Below are positions 4,112 to 57,807 of a stretch of 64,000 nt of DNA, piece after piece. Position 1 is the first letter of the stretch. Each line of letters opens with the position of its first letter. The stretch is from Rhyacophila brunnea (lineage: Eukaryota > Arthropoda > Insecta > Trichoptera > Rhyacophilidae), in NCBI GenBank assembly GCA_022495005.1, contig JAGYXB010001324.1, positions 2,046,001 to 2,110,000 of the forward strand. Reading direction: 5' to 3'. The notes under the pieces were generated by a model. The model saw nothing but the letters and a program-made list of their open reading frames with translations. It was not told where the DNA came from and made no database searches. Both the position numbers and the translations under genes were made by a program.

Positions 4112-4228
4112 ATATATATTAATTATATAATGTCTTTAAAAACTAATAATTATTGATTTATAAAAAATTATACAGCTTTATAAAAAGAAATATATACTTA
4201 GGAATACTTATGTACTACATGTTTAAAC

Positions 4229-4915
4229 ATCGGTTAGGTACATGTTCAAATACGCGCGTTAACATGATCTTACTCTATGCTTTATTTATCCTTTGTCAAT
4301 TTATGGCTACGGCCGTATGTTGTAGCTTAGCCACTGGGAAATGCCAATAGAAATTGTGTATTTCAAAAAATACTACCTTATTATTAGGTCAATAATTAAT
4401 TTAAAGCAAAAATTATTCATAGAATGTTTATCACATTTTAATGGTCAAAAACATAGCTTATAATCCAGTATCTTTAAATGTGTAAATCGTGCCCATTTTT
4501 TGAATAATAAAATGCCTAATTCTTGTCAAATTTGGGATCACAGAGATTATAAATATAATTTTTTTGTAAATATTTCACTATTATAATGTCGACATAAATT
4601 TTACTACTAGTTTTATAAATGCTTTTAAAAATTAATAAATAAAAATAAAAAATCTTAACACCACTTTACATGGACGTACTGAAATATGACTATAATTATT
4701 CTAAAACATTAGAGCGAGAGGTTTAAAAGAATACTATTTTATGTAATAAAAATACTTTATGCAGTCATCAAATTTTTAAAATAAATATAAAAGATAATAA
4801 GGCTTCAAAATTATGTAAATATATTATCTACAACGTTTAAGGAATGTCCAGAATCATGCTTTGAAAATAGCATAAAAGCTCCATTTTGACGTACGCTGAG
4901 CATGTCCTCCCTTAA
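4229..4915 (+). mobile_element. Solo right arm of the giant foldback element
   Basis: From 4237 (GGTACATGTTCAAA) to 4911 the sequence follows the right arm of the complete palindrome at 38244-39631, including the TATGGCTACGGCCGTATG word, the GAGCGAGAGG word and the CATGTCCTCCC end. It is followed by TTAA at 4912-4915. The first bases (4229-4236) look like the loop of the full element. The left arm is missing. The copy has more substitutions and indels than the 38-kb arms, so it is probably older. No coding capacity. Confidence 0.85.
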
Positions 4916-9449: not shown

Positions 9450-10100
9450 TTCTTATACAATGTATTCGTATACATACTTTTTTAATTTTGAAAAAGCTTT
9501 CGATAGAGTGAAAACATAGTAAAATTATTGAAGTATTGAATTTGACAAGAATTAATGATATAGGCTTTTGACTAGATGTAAATTTATATTGAAAAAAAAT
9601 ACTTACGTCATCAATAAAATCACTAGAAGCATTGAAATTCAAAGATGAGTAAGACTCCGTCTTATCTTTAATATTATAACGATATTAAGAAAAGAAAAAC
9701 TTAAATTCCAATTTAAATAAATGACCTAATAACTTTCAGTACGCGGACGTCACAGTGATCATTGCATACACTCTGAAAGGTTTGCAAATACCTACAATAT
9801 CTTACAAAACAGAGGCACCTAAACAATATAAAATCAAATACGTGAGTTTCAGTAAGTCGCCTATATTATATGACGGAACGTGTACAGTAAATGGAGTGTG
9901 CTATTGGAGAGAGCATAATATACGATTGTATACATGGGTTGCACTTTATATGATAACTGGGACGATATTATCATCGAATTGAAATACCGAGTCAAGCTCA
10001 AGACGATTTTCATATGAAGAGAATACAAAATTTGCACAAGGTAACATACAAGCATTATCAGCGCACCAAGTATCCACATCATGGACCCCACAAGGTGAGG
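9450..10100 (+). pseudogene. Heavily decayed non-LTR reverse transcriptase
   Basis: Plus-strand translation in shifting frames gives a recognisable series of RT landmarks. FEKAFDRVK (motif A) lies at about 9485-9512, then an IIEVLNLTRIND stretch. A QYADVTVIIAYTLKGLQ block at 9738-9788 matches the YADD motif with its second Asp changed to Val. Next come a KYVSFSKSP-like stretch, CTVNGV near 9880, and YDNWDDIIIELKYRV near 9945-9995 in another frame. The region between motifs A and C is shortened, so there is an internal deletion besides stops and frameshifts. The motif wording resembles the CR1/RTE-like endonuclease-RT proteins common in insects, but the clade is not certain. No boundaries or target duplications could be fixed. 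Confidence 0.7.
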
Positions 10101-12445
10101 GGTGAAGGCTGACAGGTCTTTAGCCTGGAGGCCCGGGCTCAGAAGGGGCCCGGAGTGGAAAGTCGACCAAATAATTGAGATAAACACACATCAGAATTTT
10201 GCTCTAATAGTAAAAAGTCGCCTGCGGTGCTATTTTCCTTCAACAATTTTATTATTTAAAACTATGTGGTTGGACGATGCAATTTTTAATTGTGTATCGA
10301 TACTCAAAATTTCATAATTCGAATGGATGTAGATACTTAATAAAATATACAAAAAAACACTAAATATATTAATTTTACCGCGAACACCATTTGAAAAACG
10401 CTACTGTAAAGCGTCACACTGGCTTTATCCTTAGCAATAGGTAGGGGGGGCCGCCAAATATCCTAGACTGAGGGCCCGCTTCAGGATGTGGGGGCAATGA
10501 TCCACATATCTAAAACTACCACTGGTAATACCATACAAATAATATTTTAACAAAAAATCTTGCTTGATAGTATATTATGTCGATAAGACGTAAGAACCGA
10601 TGTATTAAATTGTAATTATGATAAATAATAATTATTATTGAACACAGCAGAGCCAGATTGATTATCGTTTGAAATTCGCGTCGTTTACACAAGACCTGTT
10701 GCCATCACTAATGTGAAAAACATAAGATTTTTTAATATTATTAACAGAGGATTAAAGTTTGGTTGTAGGTACTTTGACGTTAGTAATACGAACTAGATTA
10801 TAGAATTATAGTATATATAGATTATAGAAAAATGTAACTTTGAGAGGCTTGTTTTTTCGGGCCAAAAGAGCGTGTTATAATCACGAGCACCGCCAATAAG
10901 TTATAAAATCAATTCCGTAACCTATATAATTATCATAAAAATGTACGTTGATGTCAATTATTGCTATCAAAATAAATGTGTTTCATTAGACCCGAACGTA
11001 AACGAAGTTCCTGCTATTAATTATTATCTATACCCCGAAATCTATCATCGTAATGTACCATAGCTCTAGTGTCACAGCAGGTATATAAGTAAATGGTAGG
11101 TAGTAATAAAAAATATTCAATATAAATTAGATTTATCATGTAATACAAAGAGTGAAATTTGTAAGAAGGGTAAGTTTTTTTTATAAAGCGATGAAACGAG
11201 TTTCCTTCACAAAATGTTAATAAGCTTCTTGCTGAATGTAATCTGTTTGGCAAGTACCAAAAATCGCTTAGGAATTGTCTCATTCACTTTTGTAATCTTG
11301 GCAACACTCGTGAAAATAAGAATAAAAACTCTTGCGGCAAAGTTATTAACTTACGTTTTTGTAAAATTATTGTTAAGCTTGTATATTTTTATTTTTTTTA
11401 ATTCACCTCATTTATAAGGGCATGCAAAGTAACCACTCAAAATTATTATTAAAATTTTCCCCCGTTATTACTTGGTGAAAAAGCATGATATTAGAAATAA
11501 CGAACACTTACCTATGCTAGATTATTATACTTTTTGTGTACTTAATTTCAGAATTATATTTACTACATGACCGGTTTCACCCTTAAAACATTTTTAATCT
11601 GTATTCTATAGTATTCTATAATATTCTGTGGCATTTTTGAAAACTATAAACAATCATACTTTATACTATTTCTTTTATTCAATGAATAATTCACAAGATT
11701 TAATAATGTACCATCCTAATTATTGAACATACATATACATTAAAAAAAAGATTTTTTCTATTGGTTATATTTTCTCAGGAGTGTTTTTAGAATTATGTTC
11801 AACAATAAAATACAATTGAGAGAGGGTTGGGCATGGAAACGATACCCGAGTGGTTGTGACAAAAGGGTGCAGAAAGTGGTGGTACTCTGGTAGTACCGTA
11901 ACACTTGTCGACACGTCAGTTCATAAACTCGAGTGTTTGTAACGTGGTTACACTAGTGTACATCTAAAAATGTAAGTAGACATCTATTCTCAAAGCTCAA
12001 AACCTAAGGCTCTTGATAAGATACCACATTGTGGTCTGAGTAGTGACATTTACTTTTCACAGAATACAAATTTGACCATCATGTGACTCTTAGTTGACCG
12101 AATGAAGATCCCATTATATCCATGTGTATTACAAGTTCACTCTGACTGACTTAGACTAGCATCGACAGTAGCCATACCACCTAAGCGGCCGTTATCCAAC
12201 ATCGATCTGATTCAATTAAAATTTCCGTAATGATGCAATGGTAATGTTAATGTAATCTTGACCATTCTAATTACATTATATTCTATGCATTATAATATTA
12301 GAGACAGATATTAATTGCACATATGGGGTGATTCACAAACGAATTACGTAGGCACCTAATAATTAATGTTGTATTGCAGAAAGACACTACATTGAAGTTC
12401 ATGACCCTACCAAACTACACCCGGACTTAATCAGGCGTATGACGA
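10101..12445. other. Mostly unassigned DNA with a possible hAT-like end
   Basis: Two GC-rich patches (10105-10165 and 10440-10500) contain GGGCCC-type words. The second, read on the minus strand from 10524, starts CAGTGGTAG and continues into GC-rich sequence, as many hAT-type ends do. No partner end was found. 11820-12190 is mixed-composition DNA without recognisable coding or repeat structure. Confidence 0.3.
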
Positions 12446-18215: not shown

Positions 18216-19336
18216 TATTATGTGCATTTTGTATGTAGAAAATTATTGTGGTATTATTTATCGCAAGTCAAGATAGACGTTAAATAATCGCTTATTTTCA
18301 AGTCAATGAGTCACAATCACGGCACTGAGTACAAGAGTATACGATAGTGATTCTGACAAGACGTTATCTTCATAACATATGTTTCATTTAAGTTCTAACT
18401 GGATGAGTGACTTTGACGTCACTTGATTATAATATTATATTGCGTCATATGTTATTTTGAATAATCTGCATGCTATTATTGCAAGTTTGGTATATTACAA
18501 CGGCAACGTCTGCACTCTGGAGCAACTCAGACTTTCCGTCCAATTTCATTAAAGTTATATCAAACTGCTCAAAATGTTGCCGCAACGGGTTTGATAATGC
18601 GACAAAGCATGCTGCAATAACGTGTACCAGATATAATATTACGTAAGTGGTAGAGACTGCAATATCAAAATATATTTTTAATTATATGAATCAGGTTGAC
18701 ATACAAAATACGGAATATTAATTTACCTACTTATGAAGCCATATAAAATAAATATAATAAATAGGTTTTTTTTTGTTTTTTTTTTTTATATGTATCATTT
18801 TTTTAGCGTTTTGAAAAAAAATTATACCTACCTTTCAACCATGATTTAAAAAACTAATATAAGAATGTTATTGAATTTATATTGCTAATAGATATTAGTT
18901 TGCTATAATTATGACTGAAAGAAACACAATACCACCAATATTAAGGCTATACCTAAGTTGGGGCATGGTCTAAAAAGATCGTCGCTAGACGATGCACGGA
19001 TTGCGGGTCGCGGGTGCAAATAACGCGTGTGAACGAAATATAATTTGTCTTATAAATCCAACATGCGTCCATTTAATGTTATGTTTATTGTTCTATTAGT
19101 AACAATAATAATATATTCATTGACATGTTTTCTTTTTCAAGTAAATGGGTAACGTTTTTAGTCATCTTTACACGATTTAAGAATTAATACCCCCATCACC
19201 ATTACGAAAAAAATTGACGTATTGACTCCTCGACGTTGGCTCTCCGAATGCCAGCGAGTCCAAAATTTCGTCGCGCCTATAGTTGAAAATTATTTGCCGT
19301 TTCACTGATGTATCGTCTTAATATGTATTCACATTA
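18216..19336. other. Unassigned stretch
   Basis: GC-richer patches at 18490-18630 and 18960-19030 show no recognisable coding, repeat or RNA signal. Confidence 0.4.
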
Positions 19337-19527
19337 GGCGGCTCTCGTGGTGCAGTGGGTAAGGCGCTGGCCTTCCACCCGAGAGTTCTGTGTTCGATTC
19401 CCGGTCATGACAAAAATATTGATGTGTTTTTCTCAAAGCCTGGTTATTTGTGATTGTTCAAAAATTACTAACAAACCACCGTGTACGAAAAATCAAGGAC
19501 ATGGTTATTAATAATTCTAAAAAAAAT
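19337..19527 (+). mobile_element. tRNA-derived SINE (family B), complete
   Basis: The head is tRNA-like: an A box TGGTGCAGTGGG at 19348-19359 and a B box GTTCGATTCC at 19392-19401, spaced as in a polymerase III internal promoter. An unrelated body of about 120 bp follows, ending in an A-rich tail at about 19518-19526. The head also reappears truncated at 35301-35350. SINEs of this kind carry no protein and rely on a partner LINE. The partner is not identifiable because the tail is a plain A run. Confidence 0.8.
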
Positions 19528-19615: not shown

Positions 19616-20287
19616 TTAAGGGGGGACATGCTCGTCGAAGGTCAAAATTGAGTTTTTATTGTATTTTCAAACCGTGATCCTGGACACTCCTTAAACGTTG
19701 TAGATAATCTATTTATATAATTTTGAAGCCTTATTATCCTTTATAGTTATTTTAAACATTTGATGACTGCATAAAGTATTTTTGTTACATAAAATAGTAT
19801 TCTTTTAAACCTCTCGCTCTAATGTTTTAGAATATAGTCATATTTCGGTACATAACTGTGCAGTGGTGTTAAGGATTTTTTACATTTATTAATTTTTAAA
19901 CGCATTTATAAAACCATTAGCATAATTCATTACGAGATAATTTTTGTAAAATATTCACGATAAAAAATTATATTGATAATCTCTGTGATCCCAAATTTGA
20001 CAAGAATTAGGCATTTTATTATTCAAAAAATCAGCAAGATTAACACATTTGAAGATGATTCTAAAGATACTTATTATAAGCTATGTCTTTGACCATTCAA
20101 GTGTGATAAACATCTTATGAATAATGATTGCTTTATAATAATTATTGACCTAAGAATAAGGTAGTGTTTTTTTGAAATACGCCATTTCTTTTGTCATTCC
20201 CCAGTGGTTAAGCTACAACATACTGCCGTAGCCATAAATTGACAAACTATAATTGAAGTAGGAAGTAAAATGATATTAACGCGCGTT
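19616..20287 (+). mobile_element. Solo left arm of the giant foldback element
   Basis: After TTAA at 19616-19619 the element starts GGGGGGACATGCTCGTCG and follows the left arm of the full palindrome at 38244-38922 very closely to the GCGCGT near 20286. There the homology stops abruptly, about 20 bp short of the loop. The right arm is absent. This copy preserves the terminal G run that the 38-kb left arm has lost to substitutions, so it helps define the true element end. No coding frame. Confidence 0.88.
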
Positions 20288-21290
20288 TTATAGGGTAGAC
20301 TTCAGGAATTTTTTCCTATTATTTTACACAAGATACATTCCTACATTATTGATGCTAGTATAAAATTCTTAATTATTATTAAACATAATTTAGATATCTT
20401 TGCATACATCCATGGATGGGATTTCCACCGAGTACATTAAGTACTTCAATATTATTTTAGATAACTACAGTAATAGTATGTTTGGCAAAACTATATCCTG
20501 TACTAATGTGGACCCATACGGTCGTCTGGAACGCTGCTAATGCTAATGATAAGCTAGTATTTGCCCATAACAAATATTATGGCCAAATAATAGCATATCT
20601 GTATCATTATCACAAGCGCAACAGCTTGTGCATCACAACGTCCCCTAGACGTCCTTCTCTTACCAAACACTTTGACCATGGAAGCACGGATACTCGATAA
20701 AGGCTAAAAAATCTATCACTTAACTATTTAATTTCATCCGATTTGTTTTGAATTTTAAACAATGAGAAATATAGTGGATATTTATTACGAAATAATAATA
20801 AAATTATTATACCAAACTCAATTTCGGCAGTAATATCCACAGAATAACTCTCCTTTTGGGGAATAAGTCGGAACCGGTTTCTGACAGTCTCATAAACTAT
20901 AATTTAATTTGATAATACGTATTAAATTTGATTTTATTCTGTATGTCAAAATTAGATAAGTAATCGATTGTCCCAAACATCTTCCCTGTATATAGTTTGC
21001 TTGTTGAATTACAAGAAACGATAACGCAGGTGTGTCGCTAGATTTCAAAATTAGCCAATTCCACCTTTAGGTATTTATTACTTTTTTGTGAATTGTTGAA
21101 GAACTACTGCTTTCTAACAGTTCTGCATTATCGAAATGTGGAATTTATTAATTTTAAATATTCTTTAATCGAAATAATATAAACTTTCACCCTTGTGACT
21201 ATGTACTTGAGAAAAAAAAACTGTTTTTCTCCTATTCATCCATTATGAACTTGGCTGATTTTGAAATCTAGCGACATAGATACCAGTGGT
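20288..21290. other. Unassigned stretch
   Basis: An open frame at 20482-20700 has no recognised family. Nothing else seen. Confidence 0.4.
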
Positions 21291-24431: not shown

Positions 24432-24890
24432 GGTGTTTTACAACGTTTTTATTATCTCGTATTATTGTTTGTCCGGTGGTTATTTGTCCAGTACAAATCT
24501 TGCAATCGATTGTTAACTAACTTCCCGACTAGCTAGATATTTGAAACTTTTAGAATATATCAGAAGACGATGAGAATGCGTTCTTTTAATACTTTTAGCC
24601 ATCTTTAAGCAGATTTTTTCTTTCTTTACTTTCATTTTCAGTTAATTCTGTTTTGTATGGAAAGTTATTTTAGAAAAATCCGTAAAAAGTGAAAGGCTAT
24701 TATTGGTTGCTAAGGAGTCCTAGTAACTTAATTATTAATATATACGTGGGTAACTATGGAAACTATATTTGTTTGTTTTTATTTACTTCATAACAAGTAA
24801 GAGTTTGAGCATATTAAGCATAATAAGTCAACAGAAAATTTAAAAACGTTGTATATAAAAAGTTCTTTTTATCTTGTAATTATTTTCTCT
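24432..24890 (-). repeat. ~450-bp dispersed repeat, copy A
   Basis: Three copies occur: this one (minus), 43810-44290 (plus) and 56685-57135 (plus). Shared landmarks in order (plus sense) are an AAATTTTCTG block, a CCATAGCAACGCAC block, TTAGCAACCAATAATA, TTTCCATA(C/T)AAAACAGAATT, AAAGTTTCAAATGTCTAGC, TAGTCGGGAAGTTAGTT and ACAAACAA, with an AAAACGTTGTAA end. No terminal inverted repeat and no coding frame. Non-autonomous element of unknown class. Confidence 0.75.
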
Positions 24891-28877: not shown

Positions 28878-28993
28878 TATTGTTGTTTTTATTTAATAAA
28901 ACGCAATTTTTTTTATATAGTACTTATTCCACTTTAAAGTGGAATAAGTACTATATAAAAAAAATTGCGTTTTATTAAATAAAAACAACAATA
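28878..28993. repeat. Perfect 116-bp palindrome
   Basis: The sequence is its own reverse complement over 58 bp on either side of the ACTTT/AAAGT centre (between 28935 and 28936), with no spacer and no mismatch, including paired runs of eight T and eight A. Pairing stops at 28877/28994. It contains no coding frame. See findings for the biological and artefact explanations. Confidence 0.97.
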
Positions 28994-30834: not shown

Positions 30835-32211
30835 TGCGCTACGATATTCTTCTTCTTTCTCGGCACTACATCCCGGGGCGGGATTTGGCCTCCTGTAAAT
30901 TGTCCTCCACACGCTCCTTTCCCTGGCTGCTCCTCTCTAGTCTCCAGCCCTCCCCATCTTTCTCCAGTCCTCTTCGATACAGTCAGCCCACCTCTTCTTT
31001 GGTCTGCCCCTAGACCGTTTCCACTGTGAGATTCACTTGGTCATGATTTTTGGCGTCCTGTGCTCAGGCATTCTCTCACCGTGTCCAGCCCACCTTAGTC
31101 TTTGGGATTGACAGAATTTCACCACCGTTTCATGTTTTATTAACTCTTCTAACTCATGGTTCATTTTTATCGTGTAACTTCCATTTTCCAATGTGGGCCC
31201 GAAAATTCTCCTGAGGATCTTTCTTTAGAATATGGCCAGTTTATGTTCTTCCCTTTGAATGAGGCACCATGTCTCACAGCCATAGGTAGCTACTGGTCGA
31301 ATAACTATTATGTAGATAAGCAGTTTGCTATTCTTGCTTAGGATTTTCGAACTCAGTAGACCCTTACAGGCGTAGAAGCACTTATTAGCAGCTATGAGTC
31401 GTATGTTCACCTCTTCTGTTGTTTTATTGAGTGTGTTTAGGTTAGAGCCCAGGTACGTGAAGCTCTGAACCTCTTCCCATACCTGCTGCTCCACACAGAT
31501 ATTTCCAGGTGGACCCTGCTCTCGCGTGGATACCATGTATTTTGTTTTGCAGGCATTTATTTCTAATCCAAGCTTTTCCGCTTCATTTTTCAATGTTGTG
31601 GCATGGTCGATCAGTCTTTGTTTGGATCGGCTAGTTATGACTATGTCGTCAGTATAGGCGCACATCTGGGATGTGTTAGAGTTAAAATAACCCCTTATGT
31701 CAACCTTACGGGCTATGGCCTCGAGAACCAGGTTGAACATCATGATGGAGAGTGCGTCACCCTGCCTTACACCAGACTCAATCACAATATGGTCCGTTAG
31801 CTCATTTTGTATGTTTATGACGGCCTTTGACTCAGTTAGGGAGACATGTATCAGTCTTCCAAGCTTTGAGGGGATTCCTAGTAATTTTAGTGCATGCAAC
31901 ATTTTTTCTCTGTTGATACTGTCAAAAGCTTGTTTGAAGTCGATGAAGACATGATACAAAATCATATTATACTCATACGCCTTTTCCATAGTTTGCCGCA
32001 TCAGGTAAATATGATCAATGGTGGATCGATTGGGGCGGAATCCGCACTGGTATTCTCCCAAGATGCTCTCCGTATACCTTAGTAATCTTGCATATAGAAT
32101 ACTGGAAAAAACTTTGTACGCTGTGTTAAGGAAAGTGATACCTCTGTAATTCTCACATTTAGTCTTATCCCCCTTTTTAAGTATTGGTACTATAATACTG
32201 CGCTACGATAT
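30835..32211 (-). mobile_element. GAA-tailed RTE-type retrotransposon, 5'-truncated, best-preserved copy
   Basis: The insert 30848-32198 lies between identical 13-bp direct repeats TGCGCTACGATAT at 30835-30847 and 32199-32211. The GAA-type 3' tail is at 30848-30860 (plus sense TTCTTCTTTCT), like that of the copy at 3042-4098. The 5' end is truncated within the RT, so the endonuclease domain is missing. The exact duplications and a mostly open RT frame suggest a fairly recent insertion. Confidence 0.93.
31225..32197 (-). pseudogene. RTE-type reverse transcriptase fragment, about 320 open codons
   Basis: The frame is open from the truncation point (32197) to 31225. In order it carries ILKKGDKTKCENYRGI (RT motif 1 region), CGFRPNRST (motif 2a), FIDFKQAFDSIN (motif A with its catalytic Asp), SGVRQGDALS (motif B), AYTDDIVITSRSK (motif C), KTKYM, FTYLGSNLN and YGCETW. 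Motif C reads YTDD rather than the usual YADD; both catalytic Asp residues are kept. Downstream, 30870-31224 decodes the usual C-terminal segment (LRWAGH and GRPKKRWAD blocks) but with stops and frameshifts. As a 5'-truncated insert it has no promoter of its own and no endonuclease. Confidence 0.9.
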
Positions 32212-33725: not shown

Positions 33726-35300
33726 CGAATACATATAACAGTTTTCATAGTAAATAAATATATTACAATTAGAAAAAAATACCAGGTATCAATGCCACCT
33801 GTCAATATTATATGATGTGGCAATTTGCTAGTACTAACTGCACTGTAAGAATCTGACAAATTATGAGAGTATCTTATTATTTGGTTTCTTTCACGACCGA
33901 TTAAAATCAATGATTCCTTTATTCGCGTGTCAGGTTATTTTTAAATTTTAGAAATTACGTTTCGAGTAAGTTTTCTCTCACATTTTCCCTTGTAGGTAAT
34001 ACGTTTTCTCTCTTTTTACAATATAATAATTAATATAATATATTTTCTCTCATGCATTAAGATAGACAAATAGATCAAGAAGACAAGTAGGTATATATTG
34101 TAATTATTTTAATATGCATGAGTTTGGTTTTTAATGTATTTACGTAAATATAATGTCATTATCATCATTTTTAATTATTCCACTTTTACGTCTCTACTTA
34201 GTTGCAGAGTTTCCTAAACTTATTTTACCCATTGCCCCCTTTTTAGAATGTAAATCTAACACTATTAAGCAAACATTTCCATTATTTTGTGTTTATATAT
34301 ATATATGTATAGATACCGAATATAGTAATAAAAGATGTTGTAAATCAGATACCCAAATACTTAAATTATAAAAGTATTGTTAAAAAAACAACCATAATAG
34401 TATCAGCGTAAGGTAATTTGAATAAAAAAGTAACGAATAAAATTAAATATATTTCTAATGAGAAGGATTAACCTAGTGCATTTTCACCTATTTATTTATT
34501 AGTAGCACATATTTCTTCAGACACATTCGTTGTCAAACAGACCTGTTGGCAGATATGAGTGCATATCAGTATAATTTGCATTTAATGTGTTTATTTGAAA
34601 AATATAGTAATTACTAGGAATATAACTCTATGTCACACAATTCGTACAACATGTTCGAACAGTTTTCTCAAATTTTTTTCGACTTTATTATTGCATCCAC
34701 CACTTATTTATTTATATCAAACGCCGGCTAATATTACTTTCTAGGCTACTACTGCTCCTCTGGATTGACGGTATCGCAAACTTTAGAAAACACTGACTTA
34801 GACGATGCTGACGTCAAAGATTCGAACACGTATACTTATTCTTGGGTACCGCTGTATGAGTAAATTTTTCCAATGATTGTCTCTTCTTCGATAAATATGT
34901 CTCGTTCATTTTCATGTACAGTTTTAACAAACTACATTACATCACAGCATTATTAAATCACTTCGTTCAATTCAAGTGTTCACACAGCGTGCACTCTACG
35001 TAATCACATATACATGCAAAACATGGAGTTTCAGTAAAATATAATCGCAGAAACTTGGGGTGACATATTATATAATATGCTTTACTGCATGCTGTGTATA
35101 ACTAGAGATGTCTAAAAAGTATCGATATTTTTATCAATTTTTTCAATAAGTACTTTGGAAAAATTAATTATCTACGGTGTTACCATCGTAATAATAGATC
35201 GATGGTGTCATTTGTGAATTTATGTTTTATTAAATTTAAACTAGGTATTTCTTTTATTCAACGAATAAAACACAAGGTTTGAGATTGTAACATTCTATAT
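33726..35300. other. Unassigned stretch
   Basis: No gene or repeat boundary recognised. Confidence 0.45.
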
Positions 35301-36057
35301 ATTAGGCGGTTCTCGTGGGGCAGTGCGTAAGGTGCTTGCCTTCTGTCAGAGAGTAAAATGATGTTAACGCGCGTGTTTGAACATGTACCATTTAAAAAAA
35401 ATCCTTTAGGTAGGTACATGTTCAAACACGCGCGTTAACATAATTTTACTCCCTATTTCAATTATAGTTTGTCAATTTATGGCTACGGCCGTATGTTGTA
35501 GCTTAACCACTGGGGAATGCCAAAAGGTAAATAATTATTATAAAGCAATCATTATTCGTAGGATGTTTATCACACTTGAATGGTCAAAGACATAGCTTAT
35601 AATGAGTATCCTTAGAATTATATTCAAATGTGTTAATCTTGCCCATTTTTTGAATAACAAAATGCCCAATTCTTGTCAAATTTGGGATCACAGAGATTAT
35701 CAATATAATTTTTATCGTAAATATTTCACTATAATAATGTCAACGTAAATTATATTAATGGTTTTATAAATGCGTTTAAAAATTAATAAATTTTAAAAAT
35801 CCTAACAACACTGCACATGCATGTACTGAAATATGACTATATCCTAAAACATTAGAGCGAGAGGTTTACAAGAATACTATTTTATGTAATAAAAATACTT
35901 TATGCAGTCATCAAATGTTTAAAATAAATATTAAGGATAATAAGGCTTCAAAATTATATAAATAGATTACCTACAACGTTTAAGGAATATCCAGGATCAT
36001 GCTTTGAAAATGCAATAAAAGCTCCATTTTGACCTACGCTGAGCATGTCCCCCCTTA
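35301..36057 (+). mobile_element. SINE head fused to a foldback element lacking most of its left arm
   Basis: 35301-35350 is the first ~50 bp of the family B SINE (TTAGGCGG(T/C)TCTCGTGG). At about 35345-35351 it switches, over a shared GAG/AGT, into the inner 39 bp of the foldback left arm (35351-35389). The loop (35390-35412) and an entire right arm (35413-36054) follow, ending CATGTCCCCCC and then TTA at 36055. The outer ~640 bp of the left arm are gone. Either a deletion joined a SINE lying to the left to the inner arm, or a template switch did. Confidence 0.85.
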
Positions 36058-36800
36058 TGTTTGTATTTAACTAAGTATATTATGTAAATATGCGTGAGCT
36101 TATAATATTCAGAGGTACTTTATGTAAATGAATCTTTTCACTTTAGGTATGATTATAAAAAATTTAATATTTTAAAAAGCAAAAGGCACTTTTTACTAAA
36201 CAAAATTAGGTGGGTAATTTTTTATTCTCATAAATTAATTTATGTACAATTTTTAACTCAACAAAATATCTAAAAGAAATGTGCTAAGTAATTAAAACTC
36301 ATAGGTTTTATGCAGAAACTCATAAAACTTTAAGAGAAAATGTAAAAAAGTCTTCTGCTACCATAAACTGGTCGTAAAAGAAATCGCGTTTCTGTCGGAA
36401 AATATACTCCAGGGGCTTACTTTTTTCCACTCTGCTTGTCCAAGCGAGTGCGGTCACTTGCTAAACCTTTTACGGGAAAACCTGTTTACGGAGGGGAAAT
36501 TTAGTCTACTTCGAAAAACCCTTCCTATGAATGATTGTTATTACTGTTGTCGGAAGATAACTTCCTTTATTTCAGACCAAAATTTGTATGGTACCCGCGT
36601 ACCCACATGGTTTATTGATGACGTGTTATCTACATACTCAATTTAACGCCCAAAGCACATATGTAGCATAGAATATTATATTATTACAGTCAAATTAATA
36701 AAAATAGTGCAAATGAGTTGAATACGTACCTATTGGGATTTGTATTTCATAAATTGGAACACCTCAGAAACATATCTATTAGAATATGTATTTATATAAA
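36058..36800. other. Unassigned stretch
   Basis: A slightly GC-richer patch at 36405-36620 has an open plus frame but no recognised family. Confidence 0.4.
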
Positions 36801-38239: not shown

Positions 38240-39635
38240 TTAACGGCCCACGTGCTCGTCGTAGGTAAAAATTGAGTTTTTATTGTATTTTCAAACCATG
38301 ATCCTGGACACTCCTTAAACGTTGTAGATAATCTATTTATATAATTTTGAAGCCTTATTATCCTTTATAGTTATTTTAAACATTTGATGACTGCATAAAG
38401 TATTTTGTTACATAAAATAGTATTCTTTTAAACCTCTCGCTCTAATGTTTTGGAATATAGTCATATTTCGGTACATAACTGTACAGTGGTGTTAAGATTT
38501 TTTACATTTATTAATTTTTAGACGCATTTATAAAACCATTGGTATAATTTATTACGAGATAATTTTTGTAAAATATTCACGATAAAAATTATATTGATAA
38601 TCTCTGTGATCCCAAATTTGACAAGAATTAGGCATTTTATTATTCAAAAAATCGGCAAGATTAACACATTTGAAGATGATTCTAAAGATACTTATTATAA
38701 ACTATGTTTTTGACCATTCAAGTGTGATAAACATCTTATGAATAATGATTGCTTTATAATAATTATTGACCTCAGAATAAGGTAGTGTTTTTTTGAAATA
38801 CGCCATTTCTTTTGTCATTCCCCAGTGGTTAAGCTACAACATACGGCCGTAGCCATAAATTGACAAACTATAATTAAAGTAGGGAGTAAAATGATATTGA
38901 CGCGCGTATTTGAACATGTACCGTTTAAAATTTTTTTTTAAAAAAATCGGTTAGGTACATGTTCAAACACGCGCGTTAACATAATTTTACTCCCTACTTT
39001 AATTATAGTTTGTCAATTTATGGCTACGGCCGTATGTTGTAGCTTAACCACTGGGGAATGACAAAAAAAATGGCGTATTTCAAAAAAACACTACCTTCTT
39101 CTTAGGTCAATAATTATTATAAAGCAATCATTATTCATAAGATATTTATCACACTTGAATGGTCAAAGACATAGCTTATAATAAGTATCTTTAGAATCAT
39201 CTTCAAATGTGTTAATCTTGCCGATTTTTTGAATAATAAAATGCCTAATTCTTGTAAAATTTGGGATCACAGAGATTATCAATATATTTTTTATCGTGAA
39301 TATTTTACAAAAATTATCTCGTAATAAATTATACTAATGGTTTCATAAATGCGTTTAAAAATTAATAAATGTAAAATCTTAACACCACTGCACAGTTAAG
39401 TACCGAAATATGACTATATTCTAAAACATTAGAGCGAGAGGTTTAAAAGAATACTATTTTATGTAACAAAAATACTTTATGCAGTCATCAAATGTTTAAA
39501 ATAACTATAAAGGATAATAAGGCTTCAAAATTATATAAATAGATTACCTACAACGTTTAAGGAGTGTCCAGGATCATGATTTGAAAATACAATAAAAACT
39601 CAATTTTGACCTTCGACGAGCATGTCCCCCCTTAA
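38240..39635. mobile_element. Complete giant foldback element with ~680-bp inverted arms
   Basis: The whole 1,388-bp element (38244-39631) is one long inverted repeat: left arm 38244-38922, loop 38923-38953 (A/T runs), right arm 38954-39631. By eye the arms agree at about 95%, with single-base changes and a few 1-bp indels. Both ends are flanked by TTAA (38240-38243, 39632-39635). The right end and the 19.6-kb copy show the terminus as GGGGGGACATGCTCGTCG; the left end has changed to CGGCCCACGTGCTCGTCG. There is no coding frame, so it needs a transposase from elsewhere. TTAA duplications are known for piggyBac, Kolobok and Sola3 elements; which one applies is undecided. Confidence 0.92.
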
Positions 39636-40650
39636 AGTTCCTATATGAAACATTTATTGCTATTTTCATTGTATATAATTATTATGCATAATATATTACG
39701 TTGAAAGTGCCTTTTTAATGTTGCTATACCTACTTAAATAATATATATACCTACACCTAAATATAATATTACGTAGTATTTAGTAAATAATAATTCCTCC
39801 AACATTTTAAATAGTCTATGTTGTGTATTTTGATATCAATTATTTATATAAATTCACGAATATTTATGGTATTCATTGACTTTATATTTTGATTTCATAA
39901 GCAAGATGGTAATTATTTAGAAGATTTTATGTTGAATGGATATGACTCCAATTATATATAGGAGGCTTGAAGTTGTCTGTAATGACACTGAACATATATA
40001 TTGTTGCGAATGGTAAAATCATATGCAGAATTTTAATATAATTAGACTTATTTCTATAAACCTTTGATGAGTGTATGTATAATATAGGCTGTATAGAAAC
40101 ACTACTAATTGGAATTGGGATTTAATGTTCAGAATATTTATTATCATAAGTAGAAGTAATATTATGGACGATGCTTTGGGCTAGAAATCGACACCACTTC
40201 TTAAGTAGGCACTGAAGCGTTCTGAGAAGGTGTTGCTGACTCTAAGGGCCGTATAGAAAGGTGAGGAACAAGTGGGCAATAAAAACACCTATCTACTTGA
40301 TTATACTGAAATATTTATAATTATAGTTATACATTGTCGCCAGAATAATACCATATGTACTGCTTGCAAATGTACCATGCATAGATTTTGGAAATAAACT
40401 AATGGAGTTTGTATATACCTACATCAATACACCGAAATAGTTGGCCATGAAATTTAAGCTAATCCGTGTCATAATCGCTTAGAACATCAGGACAGAGAGT
40501 ATTTTTTTATAACTGTCGACTTGAGACATTTCTATGCCAATCAATGCAATCGGCATACTAAAACTTGCAAATTTTCAATCGATATAATATTTGTGATATT
40601 TAGAATTTAGTGGGCCCACAAGTATTTTGACAAAAAGAGGAACCGACTAC
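39636..40650. other. Unassigned stretch
   Basis: A GC-richer patch at 40180-40270 is not recognised. Confidence 0.4.
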
Positions 40651-42530: not shown

Positions 42531-43809
42531 TAACATTTCTCGAAAATCAATAAATATTTTTCATTTTATAAATTGAATGAATGTGTGAACATTTTTTTTC
42601 AAATTTTATTAAAAATAAACCTTTGGAATTTTGGGTTTTGGAATATTTTGTCACCACCCTACCTACACATAGTTTACCATTCTTTCCACTTTATTTCCAC
42701 TTTTCCAAATATATTTTTTCTGATGTTATACCAACTTAAGATATTGGGTCAGTTTCATTAATAATTTGATAAACTCTCTTGTTATTATCCCGTTATTAAA
42801 TATTAGAAAATTCTGATGTAAATTTAATATTTTTCCATACAAAATAGATGCTATGTCAATCTATTATCATTGTTTAGCCTCAGTATTTGTATGAATAATG
42901 CATGAAAATAAGATTGTCAGGCATTATTACAAAAAATATCCTTACAATATAATAGGTACCCTAAAACTTTTTTTCGAAAACTTTGAATATAAATTTTATT
43001 TATGTAACTAATACATTGGTAAATACAAAAAAACATCAAAATTAAAAACAACAAACAAACCTACCTACCCAACTGAATCCAATTTTCAGACTTCTTTGAA
43101 TTTATTTTTGTTTATTTTTTTGCATAATTTGTACCTACCGTATAAATAACAAGCTCAACGAAACAAATTACTTTTATACAAATTACCCCTAAGCTCACAT
43201 AAACCTAACCTACAGCGATAAGATAATTTGAAATGTAATTCAGTATCTATAATTGTAATCAAATTTATCGATATCTGTAGTCGTTCTACCAATTATGCAA
43301 CATAAGCTGTTGGACCGTGGTACAAGAGAAATTATACACGAGAATTAATAAATATACATCCATAGATGTGACGCCATCATATATATCTATGTGGTATGTC
43401 TAGACTTGTTTGATCTTCGATAGTTTTCCATAATAGTGTGAATTTATTGGCGAAACATTTTCTCCCAAAAGATATTCTAATGGCTTTGTTCCAAAATATA
43501 GTGAAATATTTATGGCATTTGTCATAAAATACAAAACAATATTAGTATAGTGCAGCTTATGTAACGTCTACGATATCATTATTATATTATATTTGCTGCG
43601 ATAAATGTGTGTTCAATATTATTTGCGGCCTATTTCAAATACCACATTATTAATAGTATAATGAATCTTAATCCTTGAGTAAATCCGTTATTAATTTTAC
43701 TCGTTTCTACTCAATAATATATTATTTATTCAATATGCTTATGAATCGAATAATATAGTTACCTCCTATTTAGAGTTTTTTGTAAACAATTGTATTTAAT
43801 GAAAATAAT
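42531..43809. other. Unassigned AT-rich stretch
   Basis: Nothing recognised. Confidence 0.45.
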
Positions 43810-44290
43810 TACAAGATAAAAATTACTTTTTATATAGGTACAATATTTTTAAATTTTCTGTTGAATTATTATTATGTTCAAACTTGTACTTGATATGAAG
43901 TAAATAAAAAACAAACAAATATAGAATGCTGAAATATCATTTTGACATTTCATTTTGATTTCCATAGCAACGCACATATATATTAATAATTTAGTTGCTA
44001 GGACCATCTTCTTAGCAACCAATAATAGTCTTTTACTTTTTACGGATTGTTCTGAAATAACTTTCCATATAAAACAGAATTAACTGAAAATGAATTCAAT
44101 TCTGCTTAAAGATGGCTAACAGTATTAAAAGAATGCATTGGCATTGTGTTCTGATATATTCCAAAAGTTTCAAATGTCTAGCTAGTCGGGAAGTTAGTTT
44201 AAAATCGATTGCAAGATTTGTACTTGACAAACAACCACCTACAAACAAAAATACGAGCTTATCAAAACGTTGTAAAAATCTAATTGATTT
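43810..44290 (+). repeat. ~450-bp dispersed repeat, copy B
   Basis: Shares the ordered landmarks given for 24432-24890, including CCATAGCAACGCACATATAT near 43970, TTTCCATATAAAACAGAATT near 44060 and CTAGTCGGGAAGTTAGTTT near 44190. The open frame 44112-44315 lies over the repeat and is not a gene. Confidence 0.75.
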
Positions 44291-47397: not shown

Positions 47398-49505
47398 TAG
47401 CTGAAGTACCCGGCTTTGCACAGGGTCGCTTCGTGGGTATATTTATCTTAGATATTTAAAAAATAATAAGAGGTAATTGTATTTTTGATATTAAAATATC
47501 TGTGTTATACAATATGGCAATATGAAAATAATTCTAATAGGAGTAAATGTCAAACAAAAGACCACTAAATTAAAATCGAATCCAAAATATGCAAACGTTA
47601 TTAACGTTATTAATATGTAGTAAAAAAAATCAAAATTGCATTGAACAAACAAACAATAAACGTTGAATTTTATATAATACTAATTTAGAAACCTTTGCGG
47701 GCGTGCGCACAACAACTGGTCAAAGTTTCATCGCAATCCGATGAACGGTATAAGAACGCATACAAATAGAAGAAGAAAAAGATGGTTGTACTAATTCAAA
47801 AACCTTTGCGGGCGTGCGCACAACAACTGGTCAAAATTTCATCACAATCGGATGAATGGCATAAGAACGCATACAAATCGAAGAAGAAAAAGATGATTCA
47901 GAAACCTTTGCGGGCAACACTTGATCAAAATTTCATTGCAATCGGATGAATGGTATAGGAACGCATACGAATAGAAGAAGAAGATGATTTTCTAATTCAA
48001 AAATCTTCGTGGGCATGCGCACGACAACTCACCAAAGTTTCATTGCAATCGGATGAATGGTGTAGGTACGCATTCGAATAGAAGAAGAAGATGATGGTTG
48101 TACTAATTCAGAAACCTTTGCAGGCGTGCGCACGACAACTCACCAAAGTTTCATTGCAATCGGATGAATGGTATAGGAACGCTTACAAATAGAAGAAGAA
48201 GAAGATGGTTGTACTAATTCAGAAACCTTCGCGGTCTTGCGCACAACAACTGGTCAAAATTTCATTGGAATTGGATGAATGGTATAAGAACGCATACGAA
48301 TAGAAGAAGATAGAATAGAAGAAAAAGAAGAAGAAAATGGTTGTATCAATTTGAAACCTTTGCGGGCGTGAACACAACACTTGATCAAATTTTCATTGCA
48401 ATCGGATGAATGGTATAGGAACGCATACGTATAGAAAGAGAAGCAGATGGTTGTACTAATTCAGAACCCTTTGCGGGCGTGCTCACAACAACTGGTCAAA
48501 ATTTCATTGCAATCGGATGAATGGTATAGGAACGCATAGAAATAGAAGAAGATAGAATATAAGAAGAAGATGGTTGTACTAATTCAGAAACCTTCGCGGG
48601 TGTTGGCACAATTACTGACGAAAATTTTATTGCAATCGGATGAATGGAATAGGAACGCATACGAATAGAAGAATATAGAATAGAAGAAGAAGAAGAAGAA
48701 AATGGTTTTACTAATTCAAAAACCTTTGCGGGTGTTACCACAACAACTGACGAAGGTTTCATCGCAATCGGATGAATGGTATAAGGACCATACGAATAAA
48801 AGAAGATAGAATGAAGAAGAAAAAGAAGGTTGTACTATTTTAGAAACCTTTGCGGATGTTAACACAACAACTGACGAAGGTTTCATCGCAATAGGATGCC
48901 TGGTATAGGAACCATACGAATAAAAGAAGATAGAATGAGGAAAAAGAAGAAAGTGATGATTTTTCTAATTCAAAAACCTTCATGGGTGTGCATACAACCA
49001 CTTACCAAAATTTTATTGCAATCGGATGAATGGTATAGGAACCATACGAATAAAAAAATATAGAATGGAGAAGAAGAAGAAGAAGAAGATGATGATTTTT
49101 CTAATTCAGAAACCTTTATGGGTGTGCATAAAACCACTTACCAAAATTTCATTGCAATCGGATGAATGGTATAGGAACCATACAAATAAAAGAAAATAGA
49201 ATGAAGAAGAAGAAGAAGCTGATAATTTTTCTAATTCAGAAACCTTTATGAGTGTGCATGCAACCACTTACCAAAATTTCATCGCAATCGGATGAATGGT
49301 ATAGGAACGCATACGGGACAGACAGATAGACAGACAGACAGACAGACAGACATTCATTTTTATATATTAGTATAGCCTATACTCTTTGCGCAAGTGCAAG
49401 CAATAAGTTGACAAAGTTTTATCGCAATCGGATGAACGGTATGGCTGCGCATTAAATACGAACAAACAAACACACAAACACACAAATATTAATTTTTATA
49501 TATTA
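47398..49505 (+). repeat. Interspersed repeat with an internal 15-copy tandem array
   Basis: The element begins ACTAGCTGAAGTACCCGGC at about 47395, a start I recall from many insect interspersed repeats, and ends with a GACAGACA run and TTCATTTTTATATATTAGTA near 49360. A second, shorter end copy finishes at 49505. Between them, about 15 units of roughly 95-140 bp each carry a CCTTTGCGGG block, an ACAACTGGTCAAA block and CAATCGGATGAATGG, followed by GAAGAAGA-rich linkers of variable length. Units in the left part keep the GCGGGCGTGCGCAC wording; those after 48960 share ATGGGTGTGCAT and ACCACTTACCAAAATT. Open frames across the array (for example minus 48496-48762) are products of the repeat. 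Confidence 0.85.
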
Positions 49506-50260: not shown

Positions 50261-52043
50261 TTAGTTTGTATGAAATGGTTCCATACATTCTGGGCAAAGA
50301 GGCACTTTACATTTTTTACAATTATATCTGGTCTTTTTATGGCAATTTTTTTCATGGCATCTTGATGCAAAATTTGCCGTGGATTTCCCAGGGTAATGCC
50401 CTTTATTATCAAACCTCAAATCAAATGGCGCTTTGGATATTTGACGTTTTTTGGGTGGAGGAGTGGTTGAACACGGGCGTCCTCGATTTTTTCTATCACT
50501 AGTTGTTTGTCCTTGGTAAATAAGTGACATCGCCACTTCACTTCGGAATTCCAAGAGTTCTTTCTTACTGTTAGGGTATGCTAAGCGCCATAACAGCCAA
50601 GCATTAGCAATGGTGGCATTTAACATGTGATAAAAAATTCGCAAGTACCATCTCTTATTTTTTATTGAATGTCTGTATAAGGCAATGAAAAAATCAAGCA
50701 AGTCTACCCCTCCCATATTGTATATTGTATATTTGAACTATACATGGTCGTGGCACCTTTTTTCTCCTTGCTACTCTCCTCCATCTATCGGCTTCATCTG
50801 TGGGCTCGATTCCACAATATGTGGATATAATGTGAACCACGGAATTATCAACCCATTGTACCACACTAACGTTATCGCTAGATGTCGTAATCGTATGTGT
50901 GCCTCGTCCTTCTTTTTGTATGTCCGATATGGTCTTCAGTTTACTGCGAGCATCACCGAGTCGATTAGCTCGACAAGTTCTAATACAATATACTCGATTA
51001 TTTTGGAGATGTTGCATGATGGGTACTGAAGTGAAGAAATTGTCAAAACAAAGTTTGTGGTTCTTATGGTACAATGCTTGAGACAGTCGCAAAATCACAT
51101 CTCCAGTTGCACCAAATGCTGATGCAGTTGGCTTGTTTGAAGCTCCTTGATAAATTTCAAACTCGTACATATAACCTGAAGCTCCAGCTCGAACCCAAAC
51201 TTTTATGCCCCAAGGATTTGGTTTTGATTTTTTAAACTGCTTTATAATAGACCTACCTTTAAATGGAATGATCATTTCATCTATGGATTGGTGTTCTTCT
51301 GGTGATACAGCATTTGCAAATGTTTCAGATAGCTTTGTTAGTATTGGCTGTATTTTAAATAATTTGTCTGTGGTGCCAGGCATGTCCGCATTGTCGACAA
51401 AGTGGATATAACGACGGAATAATTCAAATCGTTTTACTGACATACTATCAGCAATAATGTCACATCGCAGACCTCTTTCCGTTGACCAGTACTGCCTGAT
51501 CCTGGCATATCTGATATAGGTCATTATTATATTCATGCCCAAAAATATTTTTAATTCACCAATCGTCATTTTAAAGTTATCATATCCATTTTGAGTAGCA
51601 TATAAATTGGAATTAAGTACAATAAGATCCATTTAATCGTCTGGCCAAAGCTGTTTGAAGAAGTCAATAGGCCTTTCTCCGTGAAATAACAACTCATGCT
51701 TTCCCTGAAATTTAGGTGCGTTATTGGCGTGCATATTTTCCTTGCCTGAATACCATAGAAGTGGTCGATCCGGCATAGGGAATACCGGAGTAGTTTCAAA
51801 TTGTCTGGTTGCAGATGGTGAGGTAGCTGAGGTCTCAGCATGCTCCTCCTCTTCTTGTGCCGCTGGCTCATCCTCATCAATAATCACATCATTGACATTT
51901 CGTATATTCCAATCTGGATCAATAGTATCATCATCATCAGAGACATTGTCATCCTCAGAGTCCTCAGGAAACTCAGTTACAATTTCCTCAATCTCCTTCT
52001 GTGTCAGAGGTCTATATCTGTAATATCTTTCGCTGTTATTCAT
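50261..52043 (-). pseudogene. piggyBac-type transposase, broken by one stop codon and one frameshift
   Basis: The start ATG (52041-52043) follows an acceptor-like TTTGTTGTTACAG, suggesting a leader intron. The N-terminal part (to 51636) is acidic, with runs of Asp and Glu, and ends HGERPIDFFKQLWPDD before a TAA at 51633-51635. The same frame then continues for 312 codons with the piggyBac catalytic core: the first Asp in QSIDEMIIPFKGR (near 51280) and the second in CFDNFFTSVP (near 51043). Near 50717-50735 a one-base frame change, beside a repeated ATACAAT, leads to MGGVDLLDFF with the third Asp (near 50703). The protein ends with a Cys/His-rich domain (CHEKNCHKK through KCKVPLCPEC), as in the family. 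Apart from the stop and frameshift the gene is whole, about 600 codons, so inactivation looks recent. Confidence 0.93.
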
Positions 52044-52099
52044 CCTGTAACAACAAAATTAAGGAGTTAAAAAATATGTATGAACATTGTTCACATATA

Positions 52100-52857: not shown

Positions 52858-53342
52858 TTTAGGAATCGTCAACAAGACGTATCGTATGGCCTATATCAGT
52901 CACGAATATTTAAAACATTTTCTGGAGTTCGTCAGAGCTCAAACTTGGGGCTGTTTGCTGTTCACGAATTTTATAAATGACATAGTATTGGACTATTGGT
53001 AATAAAAAATGCTATGTTTTTGTTGTTCGCTGATGACTTGAAACTCTTTTTGGAAGTTGTCACATTGGATGATTGTCGTCAGCTCCAACTTGTTATAGAT
53101 AATATGTCAGATTGGGGTGGTAGGCGTAACAAACTAGAATTCAATATTGATAAATGCAATCTTTTGCATTTATCAATATTGTTCTTTCTTTCTTCTTTCA
53201 ATCTTTTTTTACCAGAGCCTCAAAAGTGTTGTTTTTCCAATGTTCGATGCATAGCAGAGTTCTGTCACGAATATCATCTGTAAGGACCTTGGCATTACGT
53301 TTGAAAGTAAGCTAACATTTATTAGCCATAAAGTTAACATTT
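52858..53342 (+). pseudogene. Jockey reverse transcriptase, part before the RTE insertion
   Basis: Plus-strand reading gives YGLYQSRIFKTFSGVRQSSN (motif B region, 52890-52955) and NAMFLLFADDLKLFLEVV (motif C, 53005-53060, both Asp residues kept). Then comes DDCRQLQLVIDNMSDWG, then NKLEFNIDKCNLLHL, and finally LGITFESKLTFISHKVN (53290-53340) in another frame. There is a stop just after the motif B region, an unexplained AT-rich interruption at 53165-53270 and at least one frameshift. An 18-bp inverted copy of its own sequence sits at 53164-53181. Confidence 0.85.
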
Positions 53343-54903
53343 CTTACCAGATTTGTTACCAGATCTTCCGATGAACGGAGAATATGGAGATCCTCTTCCC
53401 GAGGTTACTACCACAGAGGTGGAATATGCTATAATGTGCATGAAGAGTAGGAAAAACCCGGGAGAAGATGGGCTGACTATCGATGTTCTCAAACGGGCCA
53501 GGAGGACGGTGAGCGATGTGCTCGCACGTCTGTTCACGTCTTGTCTGCACGAAAAGAACATCCCAGAGTCATGGAAAAATGCCTCCATTATTATTCTCTA
53601 TAAGAAAGGAGACACTGAAGATCTGAAAAACTATCGATCAATTAGTCTACTGCCAATTCTGTATAAGGTTTTCACGAAAACACTCTCAAACCGTCTCGAA
53701 ACAGTTCTAGACAAGAACCAACCAAGAGAGCAAGCCGGATTCAGAAGAGGCTACAGTACTATGGATCATATACAGGTCGTCAGGGAAATCATAGAGCGCT
53801 ACCAGGAATACAAACTGCCATTATATCTTGGTTTTATAGACTATGAAAAGGCGTTTGATTCCATCAAAAAATTCTCAATTATAGACGCCCTTAGCAACCA
53901 AGGAATTTCCAGACGCTATATAAACATATTGAACAGTATATACAGTGATGCCACAGCATGCGTGAAACTCCACAAACGGTCGTGTAAATTCCCATTAACA
54001 AAGGTGTCCGGCAAGGTGATACCATTTCACCTAAACTATTCACCGCTACTCTTGAGGACTTATTTAGGAAACTTGATTGGGAGGAAAAGGTGTTCCAATT
54101 AATGGGGAGCACCTCAGTCACCTGCGCTTTGCAGATGATATTGTTATACTCTCACAAGACCCGAAAGACCTCCAAGGTAGAATGCAAGAACTCGCGGATG
54201 TCAGTCAAACGGTCGGTCTAAAGATAAATGTCTCAAAGACAAAAGTGATGAGGAACTGTTTTTCGGACCCTGCGATTATCTGTATTTCTGGCACCCAACT
54301 CGAGCAAGTCAGCAGCTACGTCTATCTCGGACAGCAGGTGTCCATAGACGGAAGCATGCACGATGAAATTGCTCGAAGAACAAAGCTGGGATGGAGTGCT
54401 TTCGGACGTCTGAATATTATCTTCAAGAGTGACCTACCATTATTTCTTAAGCGTAAGGTGTTCAACCAATGTGTGCTACCCGTGCTCACGTATGGCTGCG
54501 AGACGTGGACCCTCAACACGAGAGATGTCCAAAGGCTAAGAGTCACACAGCGAGGCATGGAGAGGTGCATGTTGGGCATCACGCGAAAGGACCGTAAGAG
54601 GAACGAATGGGTTAGGAAGCAGACAAGAGTACGCGATGTAATAGACGTTGCCAAACAGCTGAAATGGAGATAAGCGGGGCACATAGCTAGCCGAAAGGAC
54701 GGCCGCTGGACAAATGCCGTCATCCAGTGGTACCCAAGGGATACGAAACGGCCACAGGGTCGCCCTAAAAGCCGCTGGATTGACGAACTGGTAAAGTTCG
54801 GCGGAAATACGTGGCAGCGAACGACACAGGACCGAGAGAGTTGGAGAAAGCTTAGGGAGGCCTTCATCCAGCAGTGAATTGACCCTGGCTGATGATGATG
54901 ATG
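53343..54903 (+). mobile_element. RTE-type retrotransposon (GATGA-tailed), 5'-truncated, nested in Jockey
   Basis: The insert is bounded by AAAGTTAACATTT (53330-53342) and AAAGTTACCATTT (54904-54916), a 13-bp target duplication with one difference. It begins within the RT N-terminal region and ends with a GATGATGATGAT tail. It belongs to the same family as the fragment at 149-456, which matches its last 290 bases. Confidence 0.93.
53353..54877 (+). pseudogene. RTE-type reverse transcriptase, two frameshifts and one stop
   Basis: Frame one (53353-53990) holds KSRKNPGEDGLTIDVLKRAR, then YRSISLLPILYKVFTK, QAGFRRGYST and LGFIDYEKAFDSIKK with the motif A Asp. Near 53985-53995 one base has been lost. 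The next frame gives KGVRQGDTISPKLFTATLED (motif B). At about 54088 an A-run shift returns to LRFADDIVILSQDPKDL (motif C, intact catalytic pair), INVSKTKVM, YVYLGQQV, YGCETW and GITRKDRKRNEWVRKQTRV. A TAA at about 54672 replaces the Trp of WAGH. The rest (RPKSRWIDELVKFGG to a stop near 54877) is open. The endonuclease domain is absent. Confidence 0.92.
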
Positions 54904-56440: not shown

Positions 56441-56684
56441 CTCAAAAGCACTATAGCAGGTACAGTGTGATTAAGACAAATTCGTCCGGATGGAAATTGA
56501 CCTCTTATAAGGGATAGTACAAGAAGAAAAATAAGGCATATAAGGCGGTTCGGTTTTTGTCAATTTCGAGTTTGCTACTCATGATGAACGTGTAGCAAAA
56601 ATATTCTTAACCTCTAATAGATACTTTTTTATATAAAGAAATATTACATTATAATTCTTTTAATAACTTAGAATAAAATAAGTA
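56441..56684. other. Unassigned DNA
   Basis: Nothing recognised. Confidence 0.45.
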
Positions 56685-57135
56685 CAAGATAAAAAGAACT
56701 TTTTATATACCACGTTTTTAAATTTTCTGCTGAATCATATAAACATGACAATTCTATGTATTCATAAATACTTTTTTTTGTACTAGATAGAAATACTGAA
56801 TAAATATAGAATACTGAAATGTCATTTCGAATTCCATAGTAACGCACGTATATATTAATAATTTAGTTGTTAGGACCCCTTTAGCAACCAATAATAATAA
56901 CTTTCCATACAAAACAGAATTGACTGAAAATTAATTCAATTCTGCTGAAAAATAGCTAAAATTATTAAAATAATGCATTGTCGTCGAGTTAAGATATATT
57001 CTAAAAGTTTCAAATGTCTAGCTAGTCGGGAAGTTAGTTAAAAATCTTCAATCATCCAATACAAATCTTGAACAAACAAAAAAAAATCTGTACCGGACAA
57101 ACAAGAATACGAGCTAATAAAAACGTGGTAATAAA
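56685..57135 (+). repeat. ~450-bp dispersed repeat, copy C
   Basis: Same landmark order as 43810-44290 (CCATAGTAACGCACGTATAT near 56833, TTTCCATACAAAACAGAATT near 56900, CTAGTCGGGAAGTTAGTT near 57021), with a shortened TTAGCAACC block. Confidence 0.75.
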
Positions 57136-57807
57136 CAATTGCGGTTTTTCAAGTAATGCCTTCAATTTATTGATCTGTTATGCATTAGATCGATACGTAG
57201 ATAAGAGATTGATTCTAATTAGAGAAACCGCAACTTCCGCTGATAACAATAGCATCCTCTGATATCAATAATATTGTCAATTTAAATATTGATTCATTTA
57301 TTCTAATTAATTCTAGAAAACCACAAAACAATAAAATATGTTATTTGTGTTTGATAATTGGAAACATCTAGAACATTATTCATTTTCTATATGAACGATT
57401 GCACACGTAATTAATTTGTTAGTTCCCTGTCGACCATTGTACCTCACATATTGTAAGCTGGCTTTCTGTCAGTTGTAATAAATCTGTATTACTGTAATTC
57501 TTCACCGTTTAATAAATCGAACATCTATCAGAAGTTCTTATCTTTCAATTTGATATCTCTTGTGATTATTTCCGCCCTCTTTCGCTATTCCTGACAAAAC
57601 AAAAGAGACTTTAACAGAGTCCTATTTCATAGTCCTCTGTATAATAATAATAAAATAGCAAATAATACCTTACAAGTATAAAGACTATTTAATTTCGTAT
57701 ATTACGAAACCTAAAAGTACTAGTGAAAGTGATTAACTATCTTACTTAAACTACTCCGCTTTTTGGGGACGTAACAGATCGATGACGAAAATACTCACTG
57801 TAAAACG
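57136..57807. other. Unassigned stretch
   Basis: A segment at 57420-57535 has two AATAAA signals and looks faintly LTR-like, but no partner or boundary was found. Confidence 0.35.

Follow-up and report, generated by a model that had tools for sequence, protein, structure and literature searches.

The palindromic element spans 1397 bp (38240-39636) of the window, that is, the whole stretch of 64,000 nucleotides that was analysed. Self-alignment resolved a left-type arm of 683 bp on the plus strand (38240-38922), which carries the terminus variant CGGCCCACG, and a right-type arm of 683 bp on the minus strand (38954-39636), with the terminus TTAAGGGGGGACATGCTCGTCG; the family ends are written as GGGGGGACATGCTC. 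Between the arms lies an A/T-rich loop of 31 bp (38923-38953), in which four of the 31 bases are G or C and whose edges read GTTTAAA on the left-type side and, taken from the other strand, TAACCGA on the right-type side. The sequence places the two copies of the TTAA target at 38240-38243 and 39632-39635, and unoccupied relatives of other copies have these 4 bp once. Of 697 aligned columns, 661 match between the arms (94.84% identity); the arms differ by 36 substitutions and small gaps. The inverted self-match of the element scored 2183 bits, whereas the best among 20 first-order Markov resamples of the window reached 42.8 bits, which excludes a chance origin of the palindrome. No coding frame was found in the six frames of the element, where the longest stop-free stretch is 59 codons. 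The architecture given in a preliminary description of this DNA, with two long arms closing on a loop of 31 bp, TTAA at either end, and the lack of a coding frame, was confirmed, with arms of 683 bp and 94.8% identity.

The element belongs to the younger of two subfamilies, and its arms deviate from the family majority by 2.8% and 2.3%. The earlier reading as a young insertion holds for the subfamily membership and not for a pristine state of the copy. The left terminus (38244-38252, CGGCCCACG) is a linked variant, carried by 12 of the 33 left-type ends and by 2 of the 33 right-type ends. An interpretation of this terminus as a cluster of changes private to the element (P = 5e-6) was considered and dropped, because the variant occurs on 14 of the 66 sampled ends.

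A BLAST search with the element, with which a profile search agreed, detected three further arm copies within the window, each one-armed; the preliminary description had overlooked them. A left-type relative of the young subfamily, 1.0% from the majority (19616-20289, plus strand), stops about 15 bp short of the loop, and a right-type relative of the old subfamily (4229-4915, minus strand) stops 8 bp into the loop. The third copy (35351-36058, minus strand) comprises a full right-type arm, a 23-bp loop, and a 39-bp left-type stub of the second arm. All three have the outer end GGGRGGACATGC in common, preceded by TTAA in the first two and by ATAA in the third. In each of them the inner end falls no more than 77 bp from the centre, which would have a chance of 0.0016 if end points were uniform, in a post hoc calculation with n = 3.

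At a GAGT present in both, the stub of the 35351 copy is fused to a broken SINE-like head (35303-35354, plus strand), 83% identical to 19335-19386. The fused piece corresponds to the first ~50 bp of the repeat, whose relative begins at 19333 and has A- and B-box-like motifs by eye; neither ARAGORN nor Rfam called it a tRNA. The remaining SINE-like part was absent beyond the other side of the 35351 copy (scores of 17 and 18, where shuffles averaged 18.4). The SINE-like repeat kept its head and lost its tail beside a broken arm, which indicates that a deletion followed insertion at the 35351 copy. The structure of these copies indicates that the one-armed forms are decay products and that at least one arm was lost by deletion.

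The search of the insect's own genome with the left arm covered 1.087 Gb in 2118 contigs and returned 3140 first-look candidates, 40 of which were scored, giving 49 match rows. The locus sample comprised 39 loci fetched from the match list and the window copy. As these 40 loci represent the top matches to a single intact arm and not a random sample, the share of intact copies is inflated, and the end points of the broken copies should likewise not be read as typical. Facing arms were detected in 36 of the 40 loci, and both arms with both outer ends in 33; these 33 full palindromes sit on at least 28 separate contigs, with differing flanks. Among the other loci, L029 and L046 are cut off by a contig end within the second arm or immediately next to it, L036 has a second arm reduced to 160 bp, L016 has about 850 bp between the arms, L025 is rearranged, and L031 and L042 are one-armed. 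At L037 (837-2985), an older one-and-a-bit-armed copy stands back to back with a young full palindrome, with one TTAA in common, as if one copy had inserted at the target of the other. The preliminary description had made its reading depend on other genomic copies with both arms and a TTAA duplication; such copies exist, as 22 of the 33 full palindromes have TTAA at both ends. Judged from these copies, the palindrome is part of a genuine mobile repeat family. Collections of viral and prokaryote contigs gave 0 matches in five pattern scans with the terminus and two inner stretches, in line with a repeat of eukaryotic origin.

TTAA adjoins 52 of the 66 ends of the full copies (30 of the 33 of left type and 22 of the 33 of right type), against a background in the window of 1.1% per position. 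The 11 full copies that do not have TTAA at one or both ends (L009, L019, L022, L023, L026, L028, L033, L040, L041, L043, and L045) all miss it at the right-type end, and three of them also at the left-type end. A simple TTAA duplication does not explain this right-end bias. For L023, the flank matches a host repeat up to the element, beyond which nothing aligns, and this suggests a loss of host bases. Three copies have unoccupied relatives, all of them diverged paralogues, which are colinear across the insertion point and have a single 4-bp target. For L047, compared with two places in L010, TTAA is intact in both, with the second alignment stopping 2 bp past the target; for L030 against L042, and for L017 against positions 10075-10509 of the window, the 4-mer of the relative is altered from TTAA. 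The family therefore has the properties of a mobile foldback-type element: long inverted arms make up most of its length, and copies lie at unrelated sites with a target duplication, as seen for these three copies with paralogous unoccupied sites. The terminal dinucleotide is GG at 51 of the 66 ends, CG at 14 (the CGGCCC variant), and TG at one.

All 33 full copies could be typed as having one left-type and one right-type loop edge, 30 automatically and three (L023, L033, and L035) by hand. With the loop edge excluded, 4 of 47 inner arm columns (637, 654, 657, and 660) separate the left majority from the right one, as does 1 of the 636 columns of the body (584; column 0, also listed, is flank). 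With loop edge and flank included, 10 of 53 inner columns are left/right-different versus 2 of 637 body columns (P = 1.8e-10), a comparison in which six loop-edge columns differ partly by construction, because the loop edge was used for typing. Left/right specificity is thus confined to the inner ~50 bp and the loop.

In the body, the distance between arms is 3.78% within a copy and 3.83% between copies (33 full copies). Its own partner was the nearest relative for only 1 of 66 arms, and permuted partners gave P = 0.25; for whole arms in the 30 automatically typed copies, partners are 5.05% apart and non-partners equally so. A smaller test among the copies in the window pointed in the same direction, as none of the 38 variable columns has a derived state common to the two arms of the element alone, although a tree grouping these two arms was not rejected (AU p = 0.109). 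As partners are as distant as strangers, no sign of conversion is seen once a copy has inserted, and the arm bodies of the source were nearly identical. Conversion between the arms, which the preliminary description had proposed for their close match, was therefore rejected for the time after insertion; the bases of the older subfamily record an earlier equalisation, in the source lineage.

Two right-type copies, at 4229 and 35351, have 22 bases in common that differ from the younger majority. Four older fetched loci retain parts of both arms, and old states appear in both arms where they can be read: 10/11 and 15/19 in L011, 6/7 and 11/20 in L033, 19/22 and 5/5 in L037, and 14/18 and 7/7 in L046. 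The least convincing of these arms is the second one of L033, which shows 8 young states. In the same order, the older pairs have 12, 7, 6, and 15 non-young states common to both arms; the mean for young copies is 0.97. In the 35351 copy, where the arms overlap over 42 columns, there is one common non-young state. Old diagnostic bases in both arms mean that changes passed through both arms in the source lineage. The stub of the 35351 copy has the left-type state at a single one of the three informative columns. The other two left-type states are therefore later changes that did not leave the left side; on these columns, joint arm change did not happen in the inner region. The copies thus split two phases that are hard to separate elsewhere, a joint change of the arms within the source lineage and their separate drift once a copy has inserted, and how foldback elements keep their arms alike becomes testable by sequence alone. 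Foldback elements are already known as a kind, and the new point here is the pattern of arm homogenisation. A palindrome of about 1.4 kb was kept through at least two subfamilies although long palindromes are fragile, and the one-armed copies form a natural record of palindrome breakage in an animal genome.

We consider it very probable that the element is a non-autonomous foldback DNA transposon, with ~680-bp arms, a small asymmetric loop, and no gene, that inserts at TTAA with a 4-base duplication and depends on an outside transposase. It would move by cut-and-paste, and its TTAA target and GG...CC ends suggest mobilisation by a Kolobok-type transposase. In the source lineage, the arms would have been equalised by copying one from the other. 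Arm loss would begin with breakage near the palindrome centre via hairpin or cruciform processing, a breakage route reviewed in PMC7999016, and would be completed by end joining. More tentatively, and with less than even chances, the family may rebuild its own mirror: a second-arm stub near the loop would fold back and prime outward copying of the first arm body, yielding new source copies. Fold-back priming from short inverted repeats is described in PMC7999016. Each such rebuild would leave the bodies identical and the inner ~50 bp left/right specific, and would carry subfamily changes into both arms at once. Under this reading, the 35351-36058 copy, with its arm, loop, and 39-bp stub, would be both a decayed copy and a potential intermediate of rebuilding. 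The foremost alternative for the arm pattern is gap repair with template switching, which has been invoked for the structural variation of Galileo (PMC4168063); exchange between copies is another.

As for the superfamily, the GG...CC ends fit Kolobok better than piggyBac, and the putative placement is drawn from the target and the ends. Kolobok elements are described as having a TTAA duplication and 5'-RR and YY-3' ends, unlike piggyBac (PMC9587614), and the GG dinucleotide at 51 of 66 ends and the TTAA at 52 of 66 ends, together with the unoccupied relatives, agree with this description, except in the 11 of 33 copies that miss TTAA at one or both ends. Kolobok and the Xenopus T2-MITE resemble the element in their TTAA duplication and purine-rich start (RR; AGGRR in T2-MITE; PMC6004289, PMC9587614), whereas they start with AG and the element with GG(G), and the element has ~680-bp arms and no transposase linked to it. 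Insect Kolobok MITEs average about 386 bp in iMITEdb, where consensus sequences above 800 bp were discarded (PMC5199201); at 1397 bp, the element lies outside that MITE size range of less than 800 bp. Foldback-type transposons (FB, Galileo, and Tetris) are described as having, like the element, non-coding copies that are almost wholly long inverted repeats, and the Tetris copies reported in PMC4079207 are without a transposase. These systems differ in that Tetris has target duplications of 8-10 bp and is assigned to Mutator, and Galileo belongs to the P superfamily, whereas the element uses TTAA. Mobilisation by piggyBac is unlikely in our view. It would account for the TTAA target, which piggyBac MITEs also use, and the window contains a broken piggyBac-type transposase 11 kb away (50261-52058, minus strand; DDE_Tnp_1_7, E = 1.2e-58 in the middle frame), interrupted by an in-frame stop and a frame break, which is closest, among named relatives, to proteins of fish (about 50% identity). 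However, the inverted repeats around this relic, the one piggyBac copy of the genome that was compared, are unlike the ends of the element, and the contrast between Kolobok and piggyBac ends in PMC9587614 favours RR...YY.

The origin of the palindrome could also be sought in a one-armed ancestral unit from which inverted dimers formed repeatedly. The common outer end of the one-armed copies, their number (three of the four copies in the window), and the arm-loop-stub form of the 35351 copy, which could self-prime a second arm, would suit such a unit. However, the inner sides of the one-armed copies in the window are without a second end of the TTAA type, and the SINE-like fusion shows that sequence was lost from one copy after it had inserted. 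All 33 full copies and the old 35351 copy have the same asymmetric loop edges, so the centre is old, and we regard repeated dimer formation as highly improbable. Long palindromes can also arise as read artefacts (PMC12870357), and two of the 39 fetched stretches, L029 and L046, reach a contig end at the second arm. Nevertheless, the arms are about 5% different, the ends are sharp at TTAA, and the same palindrome recurs on other contigs with other flanks, which excludes an assembly fold-back as the source and leaves this explanation a negligible probability. A hairpin-RNA locus, kept because its diced transcript gives small RNAs that silence the family, is very unlikely. The predicted fold of the single-stranded RNA is one long near-perfect hairpin (-1012.5 kcal/mol), in line with the ~680-bp duplex that the preliminary description expected upon transcription, and a role of the candidate transcript as a Dicer substrate is a possibility. 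Drosophila hpRNA loci are likewise built as long inverted repeats from which a hairpin RNA could arise, whereas the element is a repeat family, with thousands of candidate copies instead of one kept locus. Its arms drift freely, and the 36 arm mismatches have no G-U excess (7 G-U versus 10 A-C on the plus strand), which rules against selection for RNA pairing. The non-autonomous foldback transposon is thus the reading that we retain.

Several further features were recorded in the window. A sub-threshold match to mir-929 in the flank at 35225-35295 (19.2 bits, with a gathering score of 56) was taken as chance, and Rfam otherwise reported one tRNA. A perfect 116-bp palindrome with 58-bp arms and no spacer lies at 28878-28993, and a minisatellite-like array with a unit near 111-130 bp at 47678-49315. 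A repeat family of about 450 bp is present at 24436-24887, 43801-44277, and 56675-57141, and copies of it also flank the L023 and L043 palindromes. Non-LTR reverse transcriptase fragments were found at 3063-4122 and 31225-32202 on the minus strand and at 53338-54673 on the plus strand. The fragment at 31225 is 97% identical to a metagenome protein, and the reverse-transcriptase and piggyBac matches include aphid, spiders, beetles, moths, and fishes, among others.
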